Of a DNA stretch of 23,135 bases, positions 3,506-19,209 are shown one piece after another. Every line of letters begins with the position of its first letter. Positions within the stretch are counted from its first letter, which is position 1. The stretch is from positions 1,407-24,541 of IMG/VR virus record IMGVR_UViG_3300030117_001083, one strand, 5' to 3'. The notes beneath the pieces were generated by a model. That model was not told the DNA's origin and searched no databases. It was given only the letters and a program-made list of their open reading frames with translations. Made by a program: the position numbers and the translations under genes. The stretch comes from a virus.

Positions 3506-5047
3506 TCATCCTAAGGCAATTGCAAGTGCAACACTATTGGCTTCTGCTGTTGCTTCAGTAGTGCCTCCAATGTCACTTAATAGTTCTGAAGCAGAACGAC
3601 CCTCAATAGATGTGCCATCTACTCTTAAAAAATCATTATCAACAACACTAGCATTTGCTACCAGAACATTCCCATTTGATATACCAGTTGATAGTGTTGC
3701 TGTTGTTGTAATAGAAGTACCATTTAATGTCATAGCATCAGCTTCTAATGTTCCATCAACATCTACATCACCAGAGATATCTAAATCTGCAAATACAGAA
3801 GTTCCAGTACCAGTTACTGTTCCTCCTACTCCTAAGTTTCCAGCAATAGTAACATTTGTTGTGCCAGTAGGAATCTCAATAACATCACTATCAGCATCAT
3901 TCTTTATCGTTACATCATTAGTAGAACCTTGACCAGTTAGTATTAATCCTTCTGCACTTGTATAACCTATTGCAGCATTATCTCCAGCAGACGTATCGCC
4001 AGTAGCTTCAAGAGTTGCACCAGTTATTACACCAGAAGCAGTAAGAGCAGTTATGTTTGGACTTCCTCCTGACCCAGCAAGTGAAGCCATGTCAGCAATA
4101 ACAGAGCTAGTAGCAAGTAAATTCAAATCCTCAACTATAGCACTTGTTGCCAATAAATTTAGGTCAGTAACAATATCAGATGTTGCCAATGTATTTAAGT
4201 CATTAACGATATCTGTTGTTGCTAGTGTGTTAAGGTCGCTAACTATATCATCTGTTGCTAGTTTATTTAAGTCAGCAACAATATCACTTGTAGCAAGAGT
4301 ATTCAAATCGCTAACAATGTCACTTGTAGCTAGGATATTTAGGTCTTCAACGATTGCACTTGTTGCTAGTGTATTTAAATCAGATACAAAGTCTGATGTT
4401 ATTAATGAAGCAACTCCAGCAACACTAGAAACTGCTGATGATATTCCGGCAACTGTTGTTACGTGAGCTTGTATGTTAGCTACAGTAGTTACGTTAGCTT
4501 GTATTCCAGCAACAGTATTAATATTTGCAGTTATTGCACTTAATGAATTTACGTTAGCAATAGTTGGTCCAGCTTCGGCAGCACCAGTAGTAGCATTAAA
4601 CCCAAGAACTGTTCCTAATCTAGCCGCTTTAAGAGGAAGCTCCATAGACACAGCAGAATCAGAATCTTGTAATCGTATTGACCTTCCGATTGTATCATCA
4701 ACGTCAGCATCAATCGCAATAAGTTTATCTAGCTCTGTGTTGAGAGAAGATATATTAAATGCACCCTGACTAGGGAAGTCAGTAGTTCTCTCGAGTGCTA
4801 TGTCTCTTGTTATCACTACAGTCGAACCACCAGTAGCACCAGTAACAGACATTGAAACTGTACCAGTAGAACCACTCCCACCTGATACTGTGTAGTGAGT
4901 TGTTAATGTTTTAAGCGTGTCATCTACATAAACATTTAAATCAGCAGCAGCAAAAAACTCAAAATTTACTGTAAAAGAAGTCGTTGTCGCTCCTTGAGAA
5001 ACACTATATGACACTCTAGGTGTATTATTTGAAACGGATATAGTCAT
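3506..5047 (-). CDS. Tail fiber protein with T7 gp17-type N-terminal domain, 513 aa
   Basis: Residues 1-130 match the T7 gp17 N-terminal tail-attachment domain (Phage_T7_tail): SYSVSQGATTTSFTVNFEFF, LNVYVDDTL, HYTVSGG, STVVITRDIALERTTDF and FNISSLNTELDKL. This part anchors the fiber to the tail nozzle. A shaft follows: four 10-residue units (about 174-213, ANVTTVANIQ type) and eight exact-length 12-residue units (223-318, DLNTLATSDIVA type). Residues 330-445 are fiber-type beta modules (SAEGLILTGQGSTNDVTI, NLGVGGTVTGTGTSVFADLD). The end (DFLRVDGTSIEGRSASELLS) resembles the C-termini of marine phage fibers that carry separate tip proteins. I see no autoprotease or chaperone domain. It lies 31 bases after the giant internal protein and has only a weak Shine-Dalgarno sequence, so it may be expressed at low level. 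Confidence 0.9.
   Translation of the reverse strand: MTISVSNNTPRVSYSVSQGATTTSFTVNFEFFAAADLNVYVDDTLKTLTTHYTVSGGSGSTGTVSMSVTGATGGSTVVITRDIALERTTDFPSQGAFNISSLNTELDKLIAIDADVDDTIGRSIRLQDSDSAVSMELPLKAARLGTVLGFNATTGAAEAGPTIANVNSLSAITANINTVAGIQANVTTVANIQAHVTTVAGISSAVSSVAGVASLITSDFVSDLNTLATSAIVEDLNILATSDIVSDLNTLATSDIVADLNKLATDDIVSDLNTLATTDIVNDLNTLATSDIVTDLNLLATSAIVEDLNLLATSSVIADMASLAGSGGSPNITALTASGVITGATLEATGDTSAGDNAAIGYTSAEGLILTGQGSTNDVTIKNDADSDVIEIPTGTTNVTIAGNLGVGGTVTGTGTSVFADLDISGDVDVDGTLEADAMTLNGTSITTTATLSTGISNGNVLVANASVVDNDFLRVDGTSIEGRSASELLSDIGGTTEATAEANSVALAIALG
4094..4381 (-). repeat. Eight tandem 36-bp units encoding 12-residue fiber-shaft repeats
   Basis: The stretch encodes eight back-to-back units of 12 residues with consensus DLNxLATSxIVx (fiber residues 223-318), with no gain or loss of a residue. 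At DNA level the units differ at many silent positions; for example Leu and Ser are spelled differently from unit to unit. The repeat is thus much clearer in protein than in DNA. A degenerate half unit precedes it (SDFVS) and a decayed one follows (DMASLAG). It probably forms a repetitive trimeric shaft. Confidence 0.9.
4409..4528 (-). repeat. Four tandem 30-bp units encoding 10-residue fiber-shaft repeats
   Basis: Fiber residues 174-213 read as four 10-residue units: ANINTVAGIQ, ANVTTVANIQ, AHVTTVAGIS, SAVSSVAGVA. They lie directly before the 12-residue array and have a different period. Units of this kind are common in fiber shafts of marine phages. Confidence 0.8.
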
Positions 5048-5078: not shown

Positions 5079-8000
5079 TCAATCAAATCTTCTATCAAGA
5101 GCATAAGCCCAATCATTTACTAAACCTTTTACATAAAATATTTGGAAATAAGGAATGTTTTTTAAAGTCAACCCAGCACCTCTGCCAAAATCTCCTTGAT
5201 ACATTTCATAAATTCCATCTACTACATCATAACCATAACTCGGTCCAGCTCCACCAAGACCAATAGCTGTTTCTAAAGTATCTTCTGTAAATTTAGGCTG
5301 AAGAAACCCTCCAGTAATATTTTTACCAGACAAAGATAATATGGTATGCATACTTTCATAAAACAAATCAGAGTGAATAGCAGCTAACCCAGAATACTCA
5401 AAAGACCTAGCCATTCTATCTTGCCATTCCATCTCCTCCCATCTCCAAGAAGGAGTTCTTAACCAGATTGAAAAGTAAGCTAAACCCAATCCAATCATAG
5501 GAGGCAAAACTCTACTCTTTAAAGCACCTTGACTAAATGCTCCAGTAATAGAAGTTAACGCACCCATAGAATAAGCATAGAATTGAAAAGGCAAAGCCAT
5601 AAAAGCTAAATGTTTTTCTAACTTAACATAACCTGGATAATCTTTATGCTCTTTTAATATGCCACCAAGACCAGCTCTTTGAACAGTAGATGTTTTGATT
5701 AAAACAACACCATCAACAATCTTAGGCTTATCTGCTGGAGTACCCATAATAATAGTATTTAAAATACCTGATGACATGCTTTTAGAAAATGTATCTCGTA
5801 ACTCAATATCATCCCAAGCTTTAGTATTCGCTAACCATAAACCTCTATCAGATTGTTGAATAACTTTATCATCAATAAGTTTGCTTATTCTTAAAGCATG
5901 GTCTTTAGTAATGTTATATCTAAGAAGATAAGCCCTGTCGAAATCACTTTCGTTGCCTGTAGCCCATCTTCTTGAAGCAGAAATATAATGGTCTGCTCTT
6001 ATTAGAGCATCAAGTCTTTTCCATATAGTAGTTAAAATACCAAGACCATTAGCTTTATAAAAATTATTTTTAGCACTATCCCAAAATGAATCGCCAAATG
6101 TACTAAACCTCATGTCATCAACCATTTTTTGTTGAGCAGTACCAAGAGTCATATCAATGGCTTCACCCCATTTCCCAACTTCTTTAATTGTTGCTCTCAT
6201 CTTAGGGTCAAAAATAGCATCTAATAAACCATGCATAGTTTTACCAACCCCATGATTCATCATAACAATAGAAGGTTCAGCTATTGCAGCCATCATAGCA
6301 CTACCTAAAAATTTTGTTTGAGCGCCAAATCTTAATCCGTAAGCAATACGTTTATCATAAGTAGCTGGATGTTCATGGATTCTTTCTGTAACAACTCGGT
6401 CATACCCAAAGCGAATATTCATATAAATATCTTCGGCATTAGCTTTTACTTCGCTAGGTGATTGTTTATTAATTATCCCTTGCTCATAAGCAGACTCAAA
6501 CACTTCATCTTTAATGTCATCAATAGTTTTAAAATTTCCAAAAGCTTTTTTAAACTCAACCATACCAGCAGTTCTTGAAACATATTGCTTATAAATATCA
6601 TAAGGATTTCTATGGATAAATTTTAAGATAACACTATTAGGTATATCTAAATTTCTATGCTTAAAATGCTTTGACAAACCTTTGCCTACATAGATATCTT
6701 CAACAGCAGTATACTGTTCTCCTAAAATTTTTTGAGTAGTATCTCTAGCTCTTTCAGCAGCTTCTTCACGAGAAGGTTTTGCAGCAAGAACAATAATCTT
6801 TTTTAACTTAGGGTCGAACACTTCTTTATACGGATTAGCCATATAATAATTAGTAAGAATGCCTTCAAATTCATCTCTATACTTTTCTATTATCTTGTGA
6901 TTCCAGTATCTAGGGAAAAAAGACTCAATCATTTCTCTAGCTTTTGCAAACTTACCACCCTCTTGAGTTGACCTCTTTAAAGCCAATCTATTAATTCTAT
7001 TTTCATTAGCTACCCTAGACTCTCCATCTAGCCTTCTTCTTTTCCCATGCATCATTTCATGGAAAAATACAAAATCTACTAAGTCACCCTCTTTTCTAAA
7101 TCGAGAAAAGTTTTCTGCTATAAAAAGCCTATGATTCCTTGTAACGATTACTTGCTCTAAGTTGTTGAGAAGGAGGTCACTTTGTTTTTTTGAAAACTTT
7201 CCTTCTTGGACAAGCTCATTTACTTTCTTTTGTATCTCAGGAATCTCGATATCTTCAATAACTCTATCAGGAAATATCTTTTGGTCGTTTACATATTTTC
7301 TCCACTTTTCATTTATAGAGCTAATGTAAGATTCTCGATTCTCTACTGTCTGCATTTCCAACCAAAGCTTATTAATCCTTCTTCTGTCTATATAAACAGT
7401 ACCTTGACCTTGAAATAATTCCTCTATTTGTTTGTCGCTTAGTTTAGAAGTGTTAATAATTTCTTGCTTTTCTTTCTTTGTCCAAGTTCTTCCTCTTCTT
7501 AAAGGAGTAAATCTACCAAACCAATTTTGAGCTTTATCCCATTCAGAAAAAATCATATCTTTATTTACTCTGCCTTTAGGTAATATTTCTTTATTAAGCT
7601 TGTCCCAAATGAACATATCTTTTTTATCTAATGAAATAATCTTTTGTACTCCAAACTCTTTCCCCCAAAGAGCCTGTATTTCATCATCAGAAAGTTCACT
7701 AATATTTGTTACATTTAATTTTGCAGTATAAGACTTAGGAGTAATTGTACTTGTTCTAAATCTTTCTAAATCATCAACAAGATTTTCTAATTTCTCATGC
7801 AAAAAATTAACTCTATCTTCTTTGTTCGCAATCCATTCGTCAAACTTCTGAAGATTGTCATACTCAAAATCCCTTAAACCTTTTCTTTTAATTTGGAGGT
7901 CTAAGGAAGCAAGATACTTTTTTTGCTTTTGAGTTAATCCCCTAGATTTACCTTGCTCTAAAATATTATCTCTAGTCTTTATTAGATTAGTCTTAACTCC

Positions 8001-10238
8001 ACCGAAATCATCTACAAAACTTTTCTGCTTTTCAATCAAAGATTCTTTTTTGCTTTTTAATTTTGTTAAAGACTCACTTGCTTCTCTTACTTTTTCTCTT
8101 GTTCGAGGGATTTCTCCTCTAATAAAATCTTCCCCACCAAGCAAACCAACATCTCTTTTCTCTATTTCTTCTCTTTTTAATGCTCCTTTAATATAATCAA
8201 TAGCAGCATCTTCTATAGGGGTATCTCCTTTTTCTCCTAAGATAAGTTTATCTACTATCTTTACCCCAAACTCTTCTCTTGTTAATTGGTCTTGCCCTCC
8301 ACCCAAAATATTTTTATTAAACTTTAACCATAGATTAGATGTGCTTAATTGCTCTGAAGGGAATAAAGAAGTAGCTTCTTTTTTACCAGCTCCACCTCTG
8401 CTTTGAATCCAATAACCATCTAACTCCGTAAAGAAATCATAAATTTTTCCTTTGTGCTGGGCTTTCCCTACTTCAACACTATGACCAATACTTAACCCTC
8501 TTTGCACAGACTCCATTTCCATACTGTTATCAGATAACATTTTTAACTGAACCCATTTAGCATATCCAGTAGCATTATCATTCATGATTACTGCTTTAAG
8601 AGGAGTAGGCATAAACTTGAATAAAGCACTTTTTACAAAACTATTACTCTTGTAATTAAACAAAGCAGCTTGTTTATCAATAGCTCTTCTTCTTTTAGCA
8701 ATTTGGTCTGTTGTTAAATCTAATTTTTCTTGGGTGCTTTCTATATCTTTTTCAGCTCTTTGAATCCTAGAGTTTAAGTTTTCAGATTCTTTATAGGTCT
8801 CAGTTCTTTTTAATCTTTCCAATAATTGAAGCTTATGCTCTTCATTTTTAGGATTAAACTTCTCGTCAAAGTTTCTGCCAAAGAAAAACCAATCCCCAGT
8901 ATCAGGATTCCTACTACCTTCTTTTAATTTTTTTTCAACATCAGCTAATTGATTTACTTTTCTTTTTAATTGAGTGACTAACTCTGGAAGATTTCTATTT
9001 ATATTCTTAATAGTTGAATCGTAGTATTGCTTATTAGAAATTAATTGGTCTTCATCTGATAAAGCTTTTAAAGTTCCTTTTGTAAATTCTTTATTGCCAA
9101 CCTTAAAAGATTTAAGCCTTCCATCTAAAAGCTTTTTAGAATTTAAAAATAATGTTGACTTCATATCAACTTCTAAATCTTTTAACTCTGGCTTCCAGAC
9201 ATCATCAATCATTTCTTGAATTTGTTTTTTTGCTTCTGAAGGACTTTGACCAGCTTCTTTAGCCCATTTAGTAAGAGAAGATTTAGACTTCCCATGTATC
9301 ATCTTTTCGTTTTTCTTAATCAATTCTTTTAGTTGTTTTAATCTTGTCTCCATATAAACAATATCTTCTTTGTTATAGGGGACAGAAACTTCTTCAACAG
9401 TTCTAGGAGCTTTGTTTACTTTTGGATTAATACCAGCTTGTTCATAAGCATAAACAGTAGCATCAACATCTTCGTTATTTTTCTGTACATTTCTTAAGAA
9501 TTGTTGGTGAGCTTTATGTGCAGCTCTTGCTTTAGTTGTCATGGGAATGCTAATAGCACCTCCCATTAAAGCTCCGAATACTGCTGCTGTACCAATATTC
9601 ATAGCAACTTCACTTGGAGTTGCAAGAGGGTCGAAAGGATATCGAGTTGCTTCTTGACCAGCAACTATAGCACCAGTTCCAGCAGCTACACGAACCATAG
9701 AACGACCTATTCCAATAGTCGGACCTCCAAATGGCAAAGCAATAAAATTAATAGGGTCTAAGAATGCAGCTCCTAAGTTCTGCCAAAATCCAGAAGCACC
9801 AATTATTTCTCTTCTTTTTATATTTTCATCTAGGACTCTTTTTTTAAACTCCATGTGTTCAGCATTTTTAACATCTGCAAAATACATAGCATGTTCTTCA
9901 TATCCTGAAATATTATCAGGAGAAAAAGGGTCGAATTCAGGGTCAAGGATATTTCGTTCATCTTGTATAGCTTTTGTAAACTGCTCTCTAACAAAAGGCA
10001 CAACATCTATCCCAAGCATTCTTGCTGTTATTGCAGCAACTGGTCTAGTTAATCCTCTGTTATCATAATGCCAATCTTCTTTTATTCCTTCCCATTGAGA
10101 GTCATAAGAATACCCTAACTGAGCGCCTAAAGTTTCCCCAAAAGAGGGGTCAATATCTTCTAAAGGAACTGGCTTAGTTGAACTAAATCCACCTCTAGCT
10201 TTAGGGTGGTAGAAAGGATTAATTAATATACTGCTCAT
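5079..10238 (-). CDS. Giant internal virion / DNA-ejection protein (T7 gp16 position) with HExxH motif, 1719 aa
   Basis: This very large protein occupies the place of T7 gp16, directly after the gp15-like gene and before the fiber. Residues 110-235 hold a conserved-looking block (HAMYFADVKNAEHMEFKKRV, GFWQNLGAAFLDPINFIALP) and two hydrophobic stretches (about 155-195 and 211-233). Residues 290-560 and about 690-830 are long charged coiled coils. At 1060-1064 lies HEMMH, preceded by hydrophobic residues (DFVFF) and followed by ESRVANENRINRLA, the layout of a zinc metallopeptidase site; SFFPRYW follows at 1106-1112. Hydrophobic helices recur near 1316 and 1581-1593. T7 gp16 (about 1318 residues) begins with a lytic transglycosylase; I see no such domain here. 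The start overlaps the upstream stop by 4 bases (ATGA). Known relatives are ejected into the cell envelope with the DNA. The role is inferred from position, size and architecture; the protease idea is tentative. Confidence 0.82.
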   Translation of the reverse strand: MSSILINPFYHPKARGGFSSTKPVPLEDIDPSFGETLGAQLGYSYDSQWEGIKEDWHYDNRGLTRPVAAITARMLGIDVVPFVREQFTKAIQDERNILDPEFDPFSPDNISGYEEHAMYFADVKNAEHMEFKKRVLDENIKRREIIGASGFWQNLGAAFLDPINFIALPFGGPTIGIGRSMVRVAAGTGAIVAGQEATRYPFDPLATPSEVAMNIGTAAVFGALMGGAISIPMTTKARAAHKAHQQFLRNVQKNNEDVDATVYAYEQAGINPKVNKAPRTVEEVSVPYNKEDIVYMETRLKQLKELIKKNEKMIHGKSKSSLTKWAKEAGQSPSEAKKQIQEMIDDVWKPELKDLEVDMKSTLFLNSKKLLDGRLKSFKVGNKEFTKGTLKALSDEDQLISNKQYYDSTIKNINRNLPELVTQLKRKVNQLADVEKKLKEGSRNPDTGDWFFFGRNFDEKFNPKNEEHKLQLLERLKRTETYKESENLNSRIQRAEKDIESTQEKLDLTTDQIAKRRRAIDKQAALFNYKSNSFVKSALFKFMPTPLKAVIMNDNATGYAKWVQLKMLSDNSMEMESVQRGLSIGHSVEVGKAQHKGKIYDFFTELDGYWIQSRGGAGKKEATSLFPSEQLSTSNLWLKFNKNILGGGQDQLTREEFGVKIVDKLILGEKGDTPIEDAAIDYIKGALKREEIEKRDVGLLGGEDFIRGEIPRTREKVREASESLTKLKSKKESLIEKQKSFVDDFGGVKTNLIKTRDNILEQGKSRGLTQKQKKYLASLDLQIKRKGLRDFEYDNLQKFDEWIANKEDRVNFLHEKLENLVDDLERFRTSTITPKSYTAKLNVTNISELSDDEIQALWGKEFGVQKIISLDKKDMFIWDKLNKEILPKGRVNKDMIFSEWDKAQNWFGRFTPLRRGRTWTKKEKQEIINTSKLSDKQIEELFQGQGTVYIDRRRINKLWLEMQTVENRESYISSINEKWRKYVNDQKIFPDRVIEDIEIPEIQKKVNELVQEGKFSKKQSDLLLNNLEQVIVTRNHRLFIAENFSRFRKEGDLVDFVFFHEMMHGKRRRLDGESRVANENRINRLALKRSTQEGGKFAKAREMIESFFPRYWNHKIIEKYRDEFEGILTNYYMANPYKEVFDPKLKKIIVLAAKPSREEAAERARDTTQKILGEQYTAVEDIYVGKGLSKHFKHRNLDIPNSVILKFIHRNPYDIYKQYVSRTAGMVEFKKAFGNFKTIDDIKDEVFESAYEQGIINKQSPSEVKANAEDIYMNIRFGYDRVVTERIHEHPATYDKRIAYGLRFGAQTKFLGSAMMAAIAEPSIVMMNHGVGKTMHGLLDAIFDPKMRATIKEVGKWGEAIDMTLGTAQQKMVDDMRFSTFGDSFWDSAKNNFYKANGLGILTTIWKRLDALIRADHYISASRRWATGNESDFDRAYLLRYNITKDHALRISKLIDDKVIQQSDRGLWLANTKAWDDIELRDTFSKSMSSGILNTIIMGTPADKPKIVDGVVLIKTSTVQRAGLGGILKEHKDYPGYVKLEKHLAFMALPFQFYAYSMGALTSITGAFSQGALKSRVLPPMIGLGLAYFSIWLRTPSWRWEEMEWQDRMARSFEYSGLAAIHSDLFYESMHTILSLSGKNITGGFLQPKFTEDTLETAIGLGGAGPSYGYDVVDGIYEMYQGDFGRGAGLTLKNIPYFQIFYVKGLVNDWAYALDRRFD

Positions 10239-18684: not shown

Positions 18685-19209
18685 TTAATGCAGTACGGGT
18701 CTTTCACTTATACTATTATTACACTCAAATTTATTTAAATTGCAATAGAAAACTCGTACAAACTCATGTTCATGCACAAAATACTGTTGATTTTCTACTT
18801 CAAACCCAATCCATTTAAGCCATCTAATCGTTTTGTCGTGGTCAATAGGCACATAATTTTCCACGACATCATAGTCTATACAAAGAAAACTAAGAATTAA
18901 TTTGCTATGTTTGTAAAAAGATTTCCACATTGCATCTACATCTTTAGTACCTAAGAACCAAATTTTCCCAGTATGCATATACTTATCCATAGGAGTAATT
19001 CCACACATAGCAATAGGTTTTCTTTTGTGAGTGATAGTAAATCCTTTAGAACCTTCTTCCATAAAAGGAACATTAAGAGCCATAGAAGGAGTTACCCCAA
19101 CCAACGCACACTCTCTGATATCAGGTAAACGCATATTATCGAGAACAATATCAACATCAGAAAGCACACATGGTCGAAACTCAAGGTTGCCTCTTTTGAT
19201 ATAAGTCAT
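18685..19209 (-). CDS. T7 gp13-like protein with acetyltransferase-type fold (DUF2833-like), 174 aa
   Basis: The core recalls the T7 gp13 family: KGFTITHKRKPIAMCGITP (about 55-73), then TGKIWFLGTKD (80-90), HSKLILSFLC and TIRWLKWIGFEVE (127-139). This is a GNAT-like pattern: a strand with 'PIAMCGI' for the central sheet and a C-terminal 'RWLKWIGF' as in N-acetyltransferases. T7 gp13 is needed for assembly of the internal core but is not clearly enzymatic. I see no classic acetyl-CoA loop (Q/RxxGxG/A), so enzyme activity is doubtful. Its ATG overlaps the scaffold stop (ATGA, 19206-19209). In T7 gp13 follows tubular protein B; here it precedes the capsid gene, next to the scaffold. The family call is fairly safe; the role (core or capsid assembly) is inferred. 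Confidence 0.78.
   Translation of the reverse strand: MTYIKRGNLEFRPCVLSDVDIVLDNMRLPDIRECALVGVTPSMALNVPFMEEGSKGFTITHKRKPIAMCGITPMDKYMHTGKIWFLGTKDVDAMWKSFYKHSKLILSFLCIDYDVVENYVPIDHDKTIRWLKWIGFEVENQQYFVHEHEFVRVFYCNLNKFECNNSISERPVLH

Follow-up and report, generated by a model that had tools for sequence, protein, structure and literature searches.

In short-tailed phages, three ejected proteins make up the DNA channel, to which usually no enzyme other than a cell-wall cutter is assigned. In the T7 gp16 model (PMC8954989), the stretch from TMH I to TMH II is a cytoplasmic hub and the transglycosylase, at the N-terminus, is in the periplasm; the SLT transglycosylase can also swap to gp15 (PMC8954989). 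Ejected zincins are already an established idea (PMC5512222), also for N4 (PMC12633501), and alphaKG-HExxH enzymes have been mentioned for the C1 domain of the N4 virion RNA polymerase, vRNAP (PMC12633501). An Asp three residues past HExxH marks a widespread phage clade of polyvalent zincins (PMC5512222). In the phage group described here, which is nearly all uncultured, no SLT-type wall cutter was detected in the proteins tested, but a conserved protease-like site was found.

The window analysed is a stretch of 23,135 nucleotides, taken from a virus record of 33,932 bases (positions 1407-24541), and its features are listed in Table 1. The 1719-aa protein matched PHROG 342, 'internal virion protein with endolysin domain' (E=5.8e-27), as did 31 of 32 scaffold relatives, and its gene stands in the order gp14-like/gp15-like/gp16-like behind the tail, capsid, portal and terminase genes. 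This protein is probably injected into the host by a short-tailed, uncultured phage. The gp15-like protein of 1193 aa matched 0 Pfam families and no transglycosylase was seen in it, and the PHROG matches of the 150-aa gp14-like protein were not significant. A 174-aa protein encoded between capsid and scaffold-like genes (18685-19209, minus strand) gave a weak match to T7 Gp13 (PF11090, E=0.00048), and in a putative tail-fibre protein of 513 aa (3506-5047, minus strand) a 13-residue unit like ATSDIVSDLNTLA was repeated approximately nine times in tandem. In the part G000:C1:24000-33932 (L216) of the record, the terminase and other ORFs are broken by short stretches of unknown bases (read XXXX), so that some genes of the record are incomplete.

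Table 1. Features of the ejection-protein genes and of the zincin-like domain, in window coordinates.
Feature	Position	Strand	Residues, basis or remark
T7 gp16-like ejection (internal virion) protein, 1719 aa, domain carrier	5079..10238	-	ORF; PHROG 342 match; gene order
Scaffold block C	5139..5846	-	residues 1465-1700; hydrophobic cluster 1544-1595 (T7 TMH II equivalent)
Scaffold block M	6249..6926	-	residues 1105-1330 (FFPRYWN ... DIPN ...)
Zincin-like domain	6963..7406	-	approximately residues 945-1092; alignment to the HEMMH subtype by eye for residues 945-1045
Recognised catalytic half of the zincin-like domain	6963-7103	-	residues 1046-1092; profile match
Asn1080-Arg-Ile-Asn1083 of the ENRIN helix	6990..7001	-	family consensus YENRIN
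Glu1079	7002..7004	-	predicted third metal ligand; Glu kept here in domain alignments
HEMMH	7047..7061	-	residues 1060-1064; predicted ligands His1060 and His1064; predicted general base Glu1061
TVYID, predicted domain-opening strand	7386..7400	-	residues 947-951; matches GTVYVD / GIVYID / TIxID of relatives
Scaffold block N	9543..9947	-	residues 98-232; hydrophobic cluster 154-237 (T7 TMH I equivalent)
gp15-like ejection protein, 1193 aa	10235..13816	-	position and size
gp14-like small protein, 150 aa	13816..14268	-	position alone

The initial annotation had reported a zincin-type HEMMH motif in the T7 gp16-like ejected core protein. Its place was confirmed by translation of the minus strand, as were the DFVFF ahead of it and the downstream Glu in ANENRINR, which is residue 1079, 15 residues past His1064. 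HEMMH is the sole HExxH in the 1719-aa protein. The number of HExxH expected by chance in a protein of this length was 0.034, and the motif was present in 3.3% of shuffles, so that evidence from outside the protein was required for HEMMH. The pattern F[VI]xxHExxH-x14-ENxxNxxA was found in 0 of 20,000 shuffles; as it was written after the sequence had been seen, the profile match and the unbiased scans serve as independent tests. Residues 1046-1092 of the query matched a profile of 65 phage domains built without the query at E=3.3e-11, or at 1.3e-10 when L084 was left out, compared to 0.2 for the best of 3000 shuffles. When the query was compared with the domain family by hhalign, the result was 98.1% with E=7e-14. 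The profile match refutes a chance HExxH in a long protein, which the initial annotation had allowed for and which the approximately 3% of shuffled copies carrying one would favour; against the match, the exact spacing and the conservation described below, its probability is negligible. The motif is genuine, as judged from the profile match and from residues that are near-invariant in relatives.

A first DNA pattern scan of viral contigs was made for HExxH followed by ENxxNxxA. The exact 42-nt gap of the query was present in 89 among the 119 matches listed, with approximately 5 expected per gap length. Approximately 75 of these 89 were large phage proteins that belong to a single domain family, with the consensus KVxGVxPLPExxFKTxEEWxxFVxxHExxH...GExxAxYENRINxxAL, and approximately 14 were small stand-alone SprT-like proteins. 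In a second scan, FV and YENRIN were forced, and thus also the downstream Glu, and HExxH was left free. HE..H was present in 88 of 93 unique cores; of the five exceptions, two were chance matches and three were genuine members whose sites had decayed. A third scan used the PRYWN motif of the neighbouring scaffold, which lies outside the domain, so that neither the zincin motif nor the downstream Glu was forced. All domain-bearing scaffold relatives found in this way (20/20) kept HE..H and the downstream Glu. The PRYWN-scan relatives were the best full-length matches so far, most being approximately 33-35% identical over approximately 690 residues. Residues of the ENRIN helix were partly swapped in scaffold relatives (EMRVN, ENATD), and no domain was seen in the incomplete records L235 and L240. 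The zincin-like domain is uncatalogued and is shared by dozens of related phages.

From the alignments, Glu1079 is the most probable third ligand, and Glu at this position was kept also in subtypes without Glu1073. Glu1073 had been considered as the third ligand; Glu was found there in 91/93 cores, yet it was absent from the HEMMH relatives L219-L227, and Glu1073 was rejected for this reason.

Two giant proteins, L209:3357-13358 (3334 aa) and L125:1744-9591 (2616 aa), carried the same zincin domain without a gp16-like scaffold, so that the domain also occurs outside gp16-like proteins; both gave a weak DUF4326 match. The same or similar motif spacing was seen in small phage proteins of 116-129 aa (L048, L053, L065, L099 and similar; HELFH...EENIVNAYA), which weakly matched SprT-like metallopeptidases.

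Searches with the domain against Pfam, NCBIfam, PHROG and PDB sequences gave chance-level matches only. In a tblastn search of 50,697 phage records with one typical domain, by which divergent copies can be missed, only an inactivated copy was found, in Pelagibacter phage Hodr. No domain copy was found in 84,980 genomes of bacteria and archaea, which were scanned twice in ways that can also miss divergent copies, and therefore no host was inferred. A whole-protein search of the viral contigs matched nothing, and 31 viral contigs were recovered only via an alignment with Hodr-type proteins. Neither the family nor its gp16 setting nor the decayed sister group appears to have been described in the libraries and literature that could be searched. 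Since Pfam, NCBIfam and PHROG, in the copies used, do not include the domain, it would go unannotated in metagenomes.

The AlphaFold model of a typical member (L062) had a pLDDT of 93.9 and contained strands, a helix with HExxH (86-102) and a helix with the Glu (111-142), so that the predicted order of secondary structure is zincin-like. The model of the query region, cut at residue 905 (pLDDT 82.9), contained confident HExxH and Glu helices and no sheet; Glu1079 was located in helix 171-203, and TVYID was non-helical with no strand partner. By eye, the GTVYID of the query and the stretch ahead of HEMMH correspond to GTVYVD...RFMFNN of the HEMMH subtype, which points to a domain of approximately residues 945-1092 with an insert. 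Foldseek searches of the PDB with the L062 and query models gave no match at E<=0.001 for this small domain, which Foldseek may miss, and the only good matches among viral models were four large phage proteins without known function. The profile link to the SprT-like small phage proteins was weak and partly circular (prob 38%, E=3e-4). As there was no Foldseek match to a zincin and no curated family, the zincin assignment is based on the motif, the spacing, the order of secondary structure and this weak SprT-like link. A further Glu in the second helix is the gluzincin arrangement. Given the motif, the spacing, the near-invariant residues and the order of the helices, a zincin-type metal site is very likely, and peptidase activity of the predicted domain is likely.

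The early full-length relatives, Pelagibacter phage Hodr and Vibrio phages, were approximately 25% identical to the query, and HExxH was not found in these Hodr and alignment-derived full-length relatives. The closest alignment-derived relatives (L016-L018 and L020) were without the domain, as were L044 and L250. In Hodr and its relatives, a look-alike stretch, ...FIKFAMKKEVYRG...DFENRIN..., was present at residues 278-365, and most full-length members of the Hodr group scored 44-60 bits with the profile built without the query. The group (L002:3612-7355; relatives among L005-L041, L045) kept the first Glu and the ENR-N helix, and both His were replaced (MKKE...YENRLN). Because of the profile match and the loss of both His, the Hodr group is classified on its sequences as a pseudo-zincin lineage, a natural pseudo-enzyme set. 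Decayed sites were also found in L167, L175, L180 and L182. The invariance of the two His, the Glu and the downstream Glu, which had been put forward for homologues, therefore held nearly without exception in domain-bearing relatives outside the decayed groups, but it did not extend to the Hodr-type group, in which both His are lost, or to other relatives, which are without the domain. The loss of both His with the domain retained suggests that the domain can serve without catalysis, and the sister lineages without the domain or its His indicate that it is not essential to the scaffold.

These findings bear on whether the domain is a non-catalytic module, binding a structural metal or a partner, or else an HExxH enzyme of other chemistry (e.g., alphaKG-HExxH). 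Such a module would agree with the Hodr group, which keeps the first Glu and YENRLN after replacement of both His, and with the lack of a structural match to known zincins. However, H, E, H and the downstream Glu are near-invariant elsewhere, a structural site needs no general-base Glu, and the further Glu in the second helix fits gluzincins. The paper on the N4 structure allows for either option (PMC12633501). We consider a non-catalytic module or other chemistry quite unlikely for this domain.

Profiles of blocks N, M and C placed the domain in three slots of the scaffold, namely N-M (21 with HExxH and 35 decayed), M-C (29 with HExxH) and inside M (18 loci); the query domain was 53-55% identical to the M-C-slot copies. 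The domain was located between N and C in 74/74 proteins having both blocks and ahead of C in 45/45 others, and it was never N-terminal of block N. The room outside N-C is small, with a median of 79 residues before N and 20 after C (7 proteins had at least 200 before N), so that the position rule is less surprising than 74/74 sounds. The hydrophobic regions in N and C, which are putative membrane-crossing regions, matched T7 TMH I and TMH II in order and spacing by hydropathy; in T7 gp16, block M was weakly detectable and block C was undetected. By analogy with T7, at low identity, a domain between membrane-active regions would act in the cytoplasm, and the zincin-like domain probably reaches the cytoplasmic side, at the inner face of the host membrane.

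This placement also bears on cell-wall cutting. The SLT domain was detected by Pfam at residues 15-127 of T7 gp16, the positive control, at 1.7e-31, compared to 0 of 32 scaffold proteins and 0 of 36 upstream gp15-like proteins (alignment A5), and no lysin was found in ten further proteins of the record. This bears out the earlier statement that no transglycosylase is visible in the giant protein. A regular-expression search for transglycosylase motifs returned zero even in annotated transglycosylases, and Pfam was used instead. Two Vibrio proteins annotated as lytic transglycosylases were not confirmed by Pfam, so that a divergent wall-cutter may be present. A VanY/Peptidase_M15 domain, which may be a wall-cutter of another type, was found in 1 of the 36 upstream gp15-like ejection proteins.

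The SLT counts would be expected if the zincin replaced the transglycosylase and cut envelope proteins or peptidoglycan cross-links during penetration, a role that the initial annotation had suggested. However, the domain was never at the place of the T7 transglycosylase before N and was always between the putative membrane-active regions, which are joined by a cytoplasmic stretch in the T7 model, and not in the N-terminal periplasmic arm. Moreover, lineages without an active zincin were also without a detectable SLT. We consider this role very improbable; by the T7 analogy, peptidoglycan cutting is probably not replaced by the zincin domain.

The reading that we favor, with moderate confidence, is that the domain is an interchangeable gluzincin-type metallopeptidase module of the gp16-like protein that would cut a protein cytoplasmically. 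The gp16-like protein would be packaged in the internal core and ejected with the genome, its N and C hydrophobic regions would thread the inner membrane, and the zincin on the stretch between them would meet the cytoplasmic side, as in the T7 model. His1060, His1064 and Glu1079 would hold zinc and Glu1061 would activate water, and the zincin may cut a host protein or the ejectosome itself in an accessory early-infection step other than wall cutting. Because of the patchy presence, the changing slot and the loss of the site in sister groups, an accessory function, e.g., host-protein cutting or ejectosome trimming, is likely. In a bolder form, which is doubtful, the domain would be a fast-evolving protease effector that enters the host cytoplasm along with the ejectosome at the very start of infection and there destroys a host protein, e.g., a factor of defence or regulation. 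It would move among three loops of one injected protein and would have been disarmed, leaving pseudo-enzymes, wherever its host target is gone.

Self-processing, which supplies one of the two substrates in the favored reading, is possible but still rather unlikely as an explanation by itself. The zincin would cut the giant protein that carries it, or the partner proteins gp15/gp14, at packaging or after ejection and, for example, free the cytoplasmic part from the membrane channel. It has been proposed for polyvalent-protein zincins, as in the processing of P1 DdrB (PMC5512222), and a cis-acting cutter is readily compatible with a domain whose position in the same chain varies. In contrast, the N4 vRNAP with its HExxH domain is packaged uncut (PMC5512222), and the lineages that have lost the His or the domain keep the same scaffold, so that cleavage is not obligatory.

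As the protease-like site is on a stretch expected to face the cytoplasm, the role of the cytoplasmic part of gp16 becomes testable with defined residues and natural pseudo-enzyme controls. Among known systems, the polyvalent-protein zincin-like MPTases (Iyer et al. 2017, PMC5512222; PF18818) likewise combine HExxH with a downstream Glu and occur in giant phage proteins for which packaging and injection are presumed. In contrast, the MPTase-PolyVal Pfam model (PF18818) matched 1 of 29 domain members (E=0.026), and position +3, the conserved Asp of the widespread polyvalent clade, one of 12 clades, is mostly F/Y/I/N/S here. The N4 virion RNA polymerase C1 domain is alike by description, as it is likewise an HExxH domain carried by a giant, ejected protein of a podovirus (PMC12633501, PMC5512222), but its carrier is an RNA polymerase with a different scaffold. 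Hodr gp57 (Pelagibacter phage EXVC031P, OQ414635, L002) shares the scaffold and a homologous domain (47.8 bits, E=1.9e-13), but both His are lost (KKEVYR) and the domain is much further upstream of block M. Finally, T7 gp16 and PHROG 342 share the scaffold family, the place after gp14-/gp15-like genes and the order of the hydrophobic regions; T7 gp16 differs in its N-terminal SLT and in not matching the zincin profile, whereas in the query SLT is undetected and a zincin-like domain is located between the hydrophobic regions.
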